The notes under the pieces are model-generated. The model was not told where the DNA came from. It searched no databases and was given only the letters and a program-made list of their open reading frames with translations. DNA of 64,000 bases from Methylobacteriaceae bacterium. GTDB taxonomy: Bacteria > Pseudomonadota > Alphaproteobacteria > Rhizobiales > Beijerinckiaceae. The translations under genes and the position numbers were made by a program. Position 1 is the first letter of the stretch. Each line of letters begins with the position of its first letter. The stretch spans positions 124,001 to 188,000 of the forward strand of contig CANEZL010000004.1 of NCBI GenBank assembly GCA_947444195.1, written 5' to 3'. Positions 10,785 to 20,628 of the stretch are shown here, one piece after another.

Positions 10785-11507
10785 TTGACGGACAAACCCA
10801 TGCGCACCGACGCCCCCGGCGCCCAGCCGGTGCCGGCCCTGTTCTTCGCCCGGGTGGAGCGGCGCTATCCCCAGGCCGAGGGCGCGCTGGAGATCCTGCG
10901 CGGGGCCGACCTCGCGATCTGGCCGGGCGAACTCGTCGCCCTCGTCGCACCCTCGGGCGCCGGCAAGTCGACGCTCCTGCATCTCGCCGGGCTTCTGGAA
11001 CGGCCGGACGGCGGCGAGGTCTTCGTGGGCGGCCAGCCGACCGCGGCGATGAGCGATGCCGAGCGCACCCGCTTCCGCCGGGAGGAGATGGGCTTCGTCT
11101 ACCAGTTCCATCACCTGCTGCCCGAGTTCTCGGCGCTGGAGAACGTGGTGATGCCCCAGCTCATCCGCGGCCTCTCGCGGGCGGAGGCGCGGGCGCGGGC
11201 GGCCGAGCTCCTCGGCTTCCTCGGGCTGAAGGACCGGCTGCCGCACCGGCCGGCGGAACTGTCCGGCGGCGAGCAGCAGCGCGTCGCCATCGCCCGCGCG
11301 GTGGCCAACGGGCCGCGCCTGCTGCTCGCCGACGAGCCCACCGGCAACCTCGACCCGCAGACGGCGGGCCACGTCTTCGGCATCCTCCTGTCCCTGGTGC
11401 GGGCCTCGGGGCTCGCGGCGCTGATCGCCACCCACAACATGGAACTCGCCGCCCGCATGGACCGCCGGGTGACCATCCGGGACGGGCTGATCCAGCAACT
11501 CGACTAA
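10785..11507 (+). CDS. lolD: lipoprotein-releasing ABC transporter ATP-binding protein
   Basis: Walker [59 protein letters not shown] start or ATG 10800. Confidence 0.93.
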
Positions 11508-11740
11508 CCGGCCGCGAGGCAGGCGAGTCTGAGGCGGTACCCGCCATGTCTTCTTCAGCCTCGTCCGACGTCGGGTTAGCTATGATCAGTCTCTCGCCGA
11601 CCCACATCCGGCTCCAATAGAGCAGCGATCGATGTGATAGCTGCATTGCAGAAAAGCGCTCTGTTTGATCGCATGTTGGTTTGAAAATGAGTCTGCGAAA
11701 GTGCTAATTGCTTGCAAGCGATGGTCAGCGAGTATCGCAT

Positions 11741-12421
11741 ATGACGCTCTCTCAAGTTCAAATTATCCGCTCTTTGGCTGAGGGATTGGCATGGTTCGAG
11801 AAGGAACTGGCCTGGAATGTCGCTCCAGCTGAGTTAAGGCATCTGACGGGTCGCATCGGCGAACTCTACGCTGCGATGATTACACGCGGACAGATGGCTT
11901 TGAGCACCATGCAGCGCGGCTACGACGTCGTCAGCGCCGAGGGACAGCGCATTTCAGTGAAAACCGTCACCTCATCGAGTCACGTCAGTTTCAATAAGGC
12001 CACGCTCCACGAGGCAAGTCATGTGATGATTCTTCGGCTGAACGTCTCAGAGGGTGAAGCCTCGATCGAGGAGCTATTTCGGGGAAGTGTGGAGGAGTTG
12101 GTGCTTCTTTGCTCCCACGTCGGCAGCAATCTCCAATTTCCAATCAAGAAGCCCGCGTCCGACCCGATCGCTCTTGATGGGCTTGCGGTTACGGGAAGTG
12201 CTCAGATCGGGAAGCGGCGAGTCATCCAGTTCGAGAACGGATCGATCATTGTCGAGACGGAGGGGGTTAGAGAGCTTGTGACTAAACCGGTGCTGCGAAA
12301 GATTGCTCAGGAACGAGGAATTAGTCCGCTAAACAGTGCCGGCAACATGATGAATACGCGCCAGCTTGGCGCAGCCATTATCGCCTCCTCAACGAGTTCG
12401 GCTGCCCCATTTCCGGACTGA
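11741..12421 (+). CDS. DUF6998-like / PD-(D/E)XK-like protein of unknown function
   Basis: LRHLTGRIGELYAAMITRGQMAL..QRGYDVVSAEGQRISVKTVTSSSHVSFNKATLHEASHVMILRLN; visibly lower GC than neighbours. Confidence 0.6.
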   Translation: MTLSQVQIIRSLAEGLAWFEKELAWNVAPAELRHLTGRIGELYAAMITRGQMALSTMQRGYDVVSAEGQRISVKTVTSSSHVSFNKATLHEASHVMILRLNVSEGEASIEELFRGSVEELVLLCSHVGSNLQFPIKKPASDPIALDGLAVTGSAQIGKRRVIQFENGSIIVETEGVRELVTKPVLRKIAQERGISPLNSAGNMMNTRQLGAAIIASSTSSAAPFPD

Positions 12422-12510
12422 AGGTCAGGTGGACCCGATCCGTTGGATGCTCCCCGTTCAGATCTGCTTAACCATGTCCGGCATCTGCCGGTTCTCCACG
12501 CTTTCCATAA

Positions 12511-12525
12511 GAACAAAACAGGAAC
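12511..12525 (+). promoter_or_regulatory. LexA-type box GAAC-N7-GAAC
   Basis: GAACAAAACAGGAAC, lying between possible -35 TTTCCA (12502) and -10 CATACT (12525). Confidence 0.6.
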
Positions 12526-12557
12526 ATACTGGTTTCGTTCTTCAGGAGGCAGCCGAG

Positions 12558-12662
12558 ATGTTCAAGCGGATTGTCGTGACCGGCATGGCGGAGTTCATGG
12601 CGTTCGGTCTGCTCACGGTGGCGGTGGCGGCCTGGGGTGTAGCCCTGACCCCGATCCCCTAA
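12558..12662 (+). CDS. 34-aa single-TM small protein, candidate SidA-like SOS cell-division inhibitor
   Basis: MFKRIVVTGMAEFMAFGLLTVAVAAWGVALTPIP; SD AGGAGG 8 nt upstream of ATG; LexA-type box in promoter. Confidence 0.6.
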   Translation: MFKRIVVTGMAEFMAFGLLTVAVAAWGVALTPIP

Positions 12663-12695
12663 CGGCGCTTGTCGGGAATCGCGTTTCGTTCCCAT

Positions 12696-12710
12696 GTTCC
12701 GGGCTTGTTC
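12696..12710 (+). promoter_or_regulatory. LexA-type box GTTC-N7-GTTC upstream of dnaE
   Basis: GTTCCGGGCTTGTTC, within a cluster of four GTTC/GAAC half-sites (12688-12718). Confidence 0.45.
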
Positions 12711-12833
12711 ACAGGAACATCGTTGCGGGGCGGCGCCGGGAATCCGGTGGATATCGCCGCCGGTGCGGCGCCCCGGTGACAGACTCCTTGAGGCCGGACC
12801 GGCAACCTCTCCGGCCCCGCAGCAAGGTCCGTC

Positions 12834-16364
<3,531 letters not shown>

Positions 16365-18435: not shown

Positions 18436-20628
18436 ATGCAGACCGCCCGCTCCCCCCGTCACGGCCGCCTGCGCCGGCTGGCGCCCCCCGGCACGCTCGC
18501 CCTGACCCTCCTGGCCGGCGGCGCTGCCGCCCAGGAGACCGTGACCCTCGATCAGCTCTCGGTGGAGGGGGAGGGCGCGGTCAGCCTCACCCGCGCCGCG
18601 CCCGTCGGCCTGAACCTGCGCACGCCGGACCGCGCCGCGAGCCGGCTCGGCCTGACGCCCCTCGAGACGCCGGCCAGCGTCGACATCGTCTCCGGCGAGA
18701 CCGCGCGCCTGCGCGGGCAGGACACGATCGCGGATGCCGTGACCCAGGACGCCACCGGAATCACCACCATCGCCTCCCCCGGCAACGGCAACGGCGCCTT
18801 CACGGCGCGGGGCTTCGCCGGCCCCAACTCGATCCAGCAGCTCTACGACGGCACCCGCTTCTACGTGGGCGCCAACACCGTGACCTTCCCGTTCGACACC
18901 TGGAACGTCGAGCGCATCGAGGTGCTGCGCGGGCCCGCCTCGGTGCTCTACGGCGACGGCGCCATCGGCGGCGTGATCAACGTGGTGCCCAAGAAGCCGA
19001 CCTTCGTCTCCGTGAACGCGGCCCGCGCCGTGATCGGCACCGACGGCGTGGCCCGCCTCGCCCTCGATTCGGGCGGCGCCATCGGCCGGGAGAGCTTCGG
19101 CGAGACCTTCGCCTATCGCCTGAACGTCAGCGGCAACCGCGCCGACGGCTGGGTCCATCCGGTGGGCGACTTCCGCAACCTCGCGGTCTCGGCCGCCCTC
19201 CTGTTCCGGCCGAGCGCGGACCTCGCGGTCACCCTCAGCCACGACCTCGGCTACCAGGAGCCCGCGCGCTACTGGGGCACGCCCCTCGTCGAGGGCCGCA
19301 TCACCGATCTCGTGCGCTTCCGAAACTACAACGTCCTCGACCCGAAGATCACCTGGGCCGACAACTGGACGCAGTTCAGGACGGAATGGACGCCGTCCGC
19401 CGACGTGACGATCCGCAACACCGCCTACCGCCTCACCAGCCGCCGACACTGGCTCGACGTGGAGCAGTACGCCTTCAACCGGGGCACGGGTCTCGTCGAC
19501 CGCTCCGATTACCTGGAGATCTACCACAGCCAGGAACAGGTCGGGAACCGCTTCGATGCCGCCTTCAGGGGCAGCCTGTTCGGGTTCCGCAACGCGTTCC
19601 TGGCCGGTTTCGACGTGAACCGCATCGATTTCCGCCACACCAACAACTTCACCTTCGACAAATCCGACAGCGTGCCGCTGGCCGGCGGCTCTCTCGGCCT
19701 GTTCCCGCAGGACGGGCGGGCGAGCCCGGCCTACGCCACGCGCACGACGCAGGCCTCGGTCTTCGCCGAGAACCGGCTGATCCTCACCGACCGGCTCTCC
19801 CTCCTCGCGGGGGTGCGCTTCGACGCGCCGACGCTGCAGCGGGACGACCTGCGCTCGGGCGCGCAGTTCGAGCGCACCTACAGGTCCCTCGGCTACCGCT
19901 TCGGCCTCGTCTACAACCCGACGCCGGACACGGCGCTCTACGCCCAGTACAGCTTCGCCACCGATCCGGTGAACAGCCTGATCACCTTGAACCAGTCGCT
20001 TGCCGGCTTCAGGCTCGCCACCGGCGATCAGGTCGAGATCGGCGCCAAGGGGCTCGCCTTCGACGGCGCCCTGGAATGGACCCTCGCGGGCTACCGCATC
20101 GTCAAGGGCGACCTGATCTCCCGGCTGCCGGGCAGCGCCGCCGTGGGCGTCCAGGTCGGGAGCCAGTCCTCGCAAGGGGTGGAGTTCGCGCTGGGCTGGC
20201 GCGTGGCCCCGGGCTGGCGCCTCGACGGGAACCTCGCCCTGCTCCACGCCCAGTACGACAGCTTCAGCCAGATCGTGGATGGGGCGGCGGTCTCGTACGC
20301 CGGAAGGCAGCCGATCGACGTGCCGGAGCGGGTGGCCAACCTCTGGCTGACCTTCGACGGCGTCCGCGACTGGACCGCGCGCCTCGGCCTGCAGAACGTC
20401 GGCGAGACCTACAGCGACTTCGGCAACACGGCGCGACGCCCGGCCTACAACCTCGTCAACGCCGTGCTCGACCATCAGGTCACGGCCGATTCGCGCCTGA
20501 GCCTGCGCCTCTACAACCTGTTCGACAAGGTCTACGCCATCTCGGGCAACGCGGTGAACGGGGTCGGCACCAACTGGCTGCTCGGGCGTCCGCGCTCCGT
20601 CGAGGTCGCCTACACCGTGACGTGGTGA
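18436..20628 (+). CDS. TonB-dependent receptor (siderophore-receptor-like)
   Basis: Signal peptide, plug (VERIEVLRGPASVLYGDGAIGGVINVVPKKP), C-terminal beta-barrel ending in VEVAYTVTW. Confidence 0.92.
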   Translation: MQTARSPRHGRLRRLAPPGTLALTLLAGGAAAQETVTLDQLSVEGEGAVSLTRAAPVGLNLRTPDRAASRLGLTPLETPASVDIVSGETARLRGQDTIADAVTQDATGITTIASPGNGNGAFTARGFAGPNSIQQLYDGTRFYVGANTVTFPFDTWNVERIEVLRGPASVLYGDGAIGGVINVVPKKPTFVSVNAARAVIGTDGVARLALDSGGAIGRESFGETFAYRLNVSGNRADGWVHPVGDFRNLAVSAALLFRPSADLAVTLSHDLGYQEPARYWGTPLVEGRITDLVRFRNYNVLDPKITWADNWTQFRTEWTPSADVTIRNTAYRLTSRRHWLDVEQYAFNRGTGLVDRSDYLEIYHSQEQVGNRFDAAFRGSLFGFRNAFLAGFDVNRIDFRHTNNFTFDKSDSVPLAGGSLGLFPQDGRASPAYATRTTQASVFAENRLILTDRLSLLAGVRFDAPTLQRDDLRSGAQFERTYRSLGYRFGLVYNPTPDTALYAQYSFATDPVNSLITLNQSLAGFRLATGDQVEIGAKGLAFDGALEWTLAGYRIVKGDLISRLPGSAAVGVQVGSQSSQGVEFALGWRVAPGWRLDGNLALLHAQYDSFSQIVDGAAVSYAGRQPIDVPERVANLWLTFDGVRDWTARLGLQNVGETYSDFGNTARRPAYNLVNAVLDHQVTADSRLSLRLYNLFDKVYAISGNAVNGVGTNWLLGRPRSVEVAYTVTW

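Follow-up and report, generated by a model that had tools for sequence, protein, structure and literature searches.

A LexA-boxed mini-protein gene beside dnaE in a Methylobacteriaceae bacterium, a probable and strongly diverged SidA-type SOS division inhibitor

In this study, we explored a 34-aa open reading frame (ORF) lying ahead of dnaE in a stretch of 64,000 nucleotides from a Methylobacteriaceae bacterium (the window). Our findings identify this ORF as a real, unannotated gene, and we consider it probable that it encodes a strongly diverged SOS division inhibitor of the SidA type, its induction, the block of division and FtsW as target all being inferred. Because the window peptide failed the test against the SidA model NF033228, we call it SidA-type and not SidA. 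Genome comparison further indicates that a LexA box followed by a mini-ORF is a locus type common across Alphaproteobacteria. On balance, we lean toward a model where LexA-controlled single-helix mini-proteins beside dnaE made up an SOS division checkpoint in the ancestor of most Alphaproteobacteria, and where they persist unannotated in many families, rhizobia included, having diverged so fast that they can be recognised by position and promoter alone, and perhaps having changed divisome partner from one lineage to another.

Results

The features of the locus are as follows.

10785..11507, + strand: lolD-like ABC transporter ATPase gene, the upstream neighbour (TIGR02211, E 6e-76, under the curated cut-off)
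11708-12421: DUF6998-domain gene (PF22522, E 6e-11), between lolD and the ORF
12502..12530, + strand: promoter-like element, TTTCCA (12502-12507), 17-nt spacer and CATACT (12525-12530), read from the sequence; the LexA box fills the spacer
12511..12525, + strand: LexA box GAACAAAACAGGAAC (GAAC-N7-GAAC), exact match, starting 47 nt before the ATG
12544..12549, + strand: Shine-Dalgarno AGGAGG, read from the sequence, 8 nt before the ATG
12558..12662, + strand: 34-aa predicted single-TM mini-protein MFKRIVVTGMAEFMAFGLLTVAVAAWGVALTPIP, SidA-type candidate (orthologues, pN/pS, AlphaFold, hydropathy), with the ATG at 12558 and the stop at 12660-12662
12834..16364, + strand: dnaE (DNA polymerase III alpha), the positional anchor (NF004226, 1419.8 bits against a cut-off of 1002)

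The ORF and its ribosome binding site lie just where the preliminary description had put them. Its placement of the ORF between lolD and dnaE also stands, the former ending at 11507 and the latter starting at 12834, but the DUF6998 gene between lolD and the ORF had been missed. The gap from ORF to dnaE measures 171 nt. The hexamers and spacer of the proposed promoter read as had been claimed, and in many relatives the upstream hexamer appears as CTTTACA/CTTTGACA at an unchanged position; a strict sigma-70 scan, on the other hand, returned no match at the element 12502-12530. Promoter and terminator scans of the locus found none, and TTTCCA-17-CATACT as a promoter is an inference. Within the ORF-dnaE gap (12663-12833 in the window, and the gaps of loci L001-L021), the elements TTATGCACAGG, TTGTCCACAG and CGGTGGATATCG are shared by many genus members, the second of them being DnaA-box-like; perhaps these are dnaE's own promoter or control region. 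The gap of the window also holds a second GTTC-N7-GTTC (12696-12710), likewise overlooked in the preliminary description, with a box near this place in L001, L002, L017 and L018 only, and its function is doubtful because it overlaps a DnaA-box-like element in the window.

Searched with the peptide, each of the 25 same-genus genomes (that of the window included) yielded an orthologue, and matches elsewhere were only weak. The genus is inferred to be Methylobacterium, M. bullatum giving the best match to the N-terminus of the window's dnaE product among the plasmids searched. Among the genus orthologues, pN/pS is 0.46 in the coding frame, whereas the two other frames give 1.02 and 1.91; no multiple-hit correction was applied, so that selection is, if anything, underestimated. 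The 20 distinct peptides keep M1, E12, G17, L19, W26, A29, L30, and P32 invariant. For the window peptide, AlphaFold predicts one helix spanning residues 2-30 (mean pLDDT 94), and hydropathy reaches 2.0 in the best 19-residue stretch. With its 34 aa it meets the size and topology expected of the SidA type (about 25-45 aa, one hydrophobic TM helix), and a membrane location of the mini-protein, although predicted, is well supported. Pfam offers no family for the 34-aa peptide, and Rfam gave no match in 11500-12900. In the plasmids and phages searched, no relative of the peptide was found at E<=1, so nothing points to a mobile origin. Each of the 25 genus genomes has an exact box ahead of the ORF, in most cases beginning 46-47 nt from the start codon; 14 of the 15 box positions carry 1.8-2.0 bits, the exception being one spacer base, and most flanking positions are variable. 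As far as sequence comparison can establish it, the ORF is coding, and selection acts both on it and on the box. Loss of ORF or box from related genomes, which had been named in advance as a possible refutation, was not encountered.

Because 1.14 matches to GAAC-N7-GAAC are expected in the window from shuffles (four are observed), the box alone is weak evidence, in keeping with the earlier estimate of about one chance box per 64 kb. The matches at 19534 (inside a receptor-like ORF) and 34893 have GC-rich spacers, look like chance occurrences, and were rejected as LexA sites. In the whole genome the motif was counted 113 times, against 42 for the reversed control. The box of the ORF had been described as a perfect LexA-type box; it is exact, and the source genome has GAAC-N7-GAAC 86 nt before the start of lexA (C2:169652) and the same box type upstream of the family-matched genes dnaE2, imuA, ssb, radA and a repair radical-SAM gene (TIGR03916), with the provisos that the imuA match falls under the curated cut-off and that dnaE2 was searched as an N-terminal piece. 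Such a box also precedes dnaB and parC, both identified by sequence inspection without a family search. A gene set of the lexA, dnaE2, imuA, and ssb type is the typical alphaproteobacterial SOS regulon, and the predicted control of the mini-protein by LexA is well supported.

The SidA protein of Caulobacter, 29 aa long and induced in the SOS response, resides in the inner membrane and interacts with FtsW (PMC4211646). In the named Caulobacter genomes, dnaE is directly preceded by an ORF of 29 aa, itself preceded by GAAC-N7-GAAC boxes that are exact or deviate at one position, and two Caulobacter 29-aa peptides match NF033228 (div_inhib_SidA) above the cut-off (1.6e-20 and 1.1e-13); the vicinity of sidA and dnaE, which the preliminary description had mentioned as unverified, is thus confirmed. 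The window shares with Caulobacter a short, putatively single-TM peptide, a GAAC-N7-GAAC box just 5' of it and at the inferred promoter, a gene directly upstream of dnaE (as in most of the genus), and a gapless alignment obtained via class-wide intermediates. It differs in the length of the peptide (34 aa), in the absence of the Caulobacter SidA core ARESLALxSVxxFVW, in remaining undetected by NF033228, and in a gap to dnaE (171 nt) longer than in Caulobacter. Against this equivalog model (cut-off 35 bits) the window peptide gave no match, and no place in the whole source genome rose above the cut-off; the model recognized the Caulobacter peptides but 0/8 other peptides tested. When the genus profile was aligned directly to that of SidA, no match emerged. 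With hhalign, Caulobacter SidA aligned with the class-wide peptides of the survey below at Prob 94 and E 9.4e-8. The window subfamily aligned with them weakly (Prob 7, E 0.005); the alignment has no gaps across residues 8-31 and places W26 on the common W of the class-wide family. A class-wide HMM whose training set excluded the genus and the Caulobacteraceae gave the window peptide 10.7 bits, a score reached by 0/500 shuffles; the genus members L004 and L005 score like shuffles. The SidA-like identity put forward earlier is therefore sustained by synteny, LexA box, and class-wide intermediates, but not by direct similarity to Caulobacter SidA, which is not significant. Common descent of the window peptide and SidA is likely when position, promoter, topology, and weak sequence resemblance are combined; the sequence alone is no proof.

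For the class-wide survey, dnaE-upstream regions of the order and class were scanned for an exact box with a start codon 20-100 nt later, the ORF having to show a Shine-Dalgarno, a length of 22-50 aa and at least 14 consecutive residues without D, E, K, R, H, N, Q, or P. Qualifying regions amounted to 51 of the 158 (36/70 in the order, 15/88 in the further class), from 34 tool-defined families, and the controls gave 0 on the reverse strand and a mean of 0.0 over 20 shuffles per region. The survey peptides align almost gap-free as hh(K/R)(D/E)hhAhhxhhxF, with a W frequently following about 7 residues later; mean column identity is 31%, indicating strong divergence between families. Searching with a profile brought in further cases whose boxes are imperfect or lie farther away, raising the tally to 39/119 sampled families, and 48/50 Caulobacteraceae loci are covered; recovery of the qualifying peptides is circular, since the profile was trained on them. 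The 16 best-scoring non-training peptides are all in dnaE loci, nearly all of them directly upstream on the dnaE strand. For instance, Sinorhizobium meliloti Ak57 (L295) has in its lolD-dnaE gap (region 1650-1784) a 28-aa ORF MADFVRDLAAFASMSLFIVSISVIALGL (1698-1784) with two tandem LexA boxes, which is absent from the (incomplete) gene table. The record itself is titled pSymB; with 3.7 Mb, lol genes, and dnaE, it looks like a mislabelled chromosome. This ORF is probably sORF25, reported by a Ribo-seq study as translated in the S. meliloti dnaE1 5'-UTR (PMC10117765). Both S. meliloti and the window thus have a short ORF 5' of dnaE, the former with a SidA-like 28-aa frame and two LexA boxes there; the authors, however, suggested a possible uORF and not a division inhibitor (PMC10117765). 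The open-licence literature searched contained no description of the class-wide locus type, and priority cannot be claimed.

Discussion

We propose that LexA, bound between the -35 and -10 elements, would keep the gene silent. Upon DNA damage, active RecA would lead to self-cleavage of LexA, and the mini-protein would be made and inserted in the inner membrane as one helix. There it would most likely bind the late septal peptidoglycan machinery (FtsW/FtsI/FtsN, with FtsW favoured), and division would be delayed until the damage is repaired. FtsW is encoded in the source genome (332 bits, just under the cut-off of 337.5). In Caulobacter, resistance to SidA maps to FtsW mutations at A31, F145, and A246 (PMC4211646). 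A31 and F145 are identical in the source-genome FtsW and A246 is replaced by S; in the genus-mate G008, A31 is replaced by G, though G008 also carries the ORF. This residue pattern is compatible with FtsW binding, yet it does not show binding.

Other known inhibitors resemble the putative window product in part. DidA of Caulobacter, too, is a small membrane protein that inhibits division and is made upon DNA damage (PMC4211646), but it is SOS-independent (DriD) and binds FtsN, whereas the window has a LexA box. YneA (Bacillus subtilis), SosA (Staphylococcus aureus), and ChiZ (Mycobacterium tuberculosis) are damage-induced small membrane inhibitors of late division, with FtsW contact predicted or shown (PMC13396833). 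They differ from the window peptide in being larger, in their LysM domain (YneA, ChiZ) or extended helix (SosA), and in belonging to other phyla. We know of no dnaE synteny for any of them.

It is possible, if unlikely, that the SOS membrane mini-protein has a partner other than FtsW (FtsN as in DidA, or FtsI), or that it regulates another envelope protein. The strong divergence between families (31% mean column identity) would accommodate such a shift, and Caulobacter does possess a second inhibitor, DidA, with FtsN as its target (PMC4211646); yet for SidA itself the interaction is with FtsW (PMC4211646), and AlphaFold 3 models from a 2026 study place SidA, SosA, and ChiZ on FtsW TM7, albeit with low confidence (PMC13396833). 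We find it very improbable that the peptide is instead an SOS-induced membrane toxin of the TisB/DinQ type, which would depolarise the membrane and slow growth without inhibiting the divisome, the synteny and box arrangement being as in sidA. Antisense RNA controls both TisB and DinQ, whereas no Rfam match exists at the locus (a novel RNA is not excluded). Still, a small single-TM peptide behind a LexA box is common ground with such toxins, Escherichia coli DinQ being a peptide of this kind under antisense RNA control (PMC3567139).

A SidA-type inhibitor also has to be weighed against a role in dnaE expression, where box and ORF would form an SOS-controlled 5' leader of dnaE and the ORF would serve as uORF or leader peptide tuning expression of the replicative polymerase. 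The ORF does lie 5' of dnaE in most genomes, and S. meliloti sORF25, in the dnaE1 5'-UTR, is counted among possible uORFs (PMC10117765). Nevertheless, we dropped this explanation, which retains very little weight, mainly since box and ORF travel jointly away from dnaE. In 3/25 genus genomes (L014-L016) they stand together beside an OmpA-like gene and not dnaE, and because both moved together in these three genomes, the box belongs to the ORF. The dnaE of G008 (L032), a genome with a relocated ORF, and that of M. bullatum (L296) have no box upstream. At L057 (G119), a SidA-like ORF and its two exact boxes, some 220 nt ahead of it, occupy the opposite strand and point away from dnaE; this ORF might overlap a longer frame or form a fusion with it. 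Selection, moreover, acts on the amino-acid sequence, and the other conserved elements of the gap suggest a separate dnaE promoter. As for the possibility that a meaningless short ORF happens to lie near a random GAAC-N7-GAAC, such a box is indeed expected about once per 64 kb, but the conservation in 25/25 genomes, the pN/pS of 0.46, and the class-wide 51/158 against 0 in the controls rule it out for practical purposes.

SidA is already known from Caulobacter. If these peptides act alike, damage-induced division arrest by mini-proteins would be a general alphaproteobacterial trait, and what is known as a checkpoint of a single model group may prove to be old and widespread. For rhizobia and methylobacteria, the identity of the SOS inhibitor can now be tested on a named gene whose promoter is predicted, and fast divergence at a fixed locus supplies natural variants for mapping single-helix inhibition of FtsW/FtsI/FtsN.

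The DUF6998 gene has a GC content of 0.51-0.57, compared with about 0.73 in its surroundings, and the distance from the end of lolD to the ORF is 1050 nt in the window versus 184 nt in the closest relative (L002); it is therefore a probable recent acquisition. Elsewhere (G000 C30; minus strand of L276, near 1500), a gene of 280 aa with a DUF6456 domain (PF20057, E 4.5e-43) directly follows a LexA-type box, GAACAAATCATGAAC, and is a candidate for an uncharacterised SOS gene.
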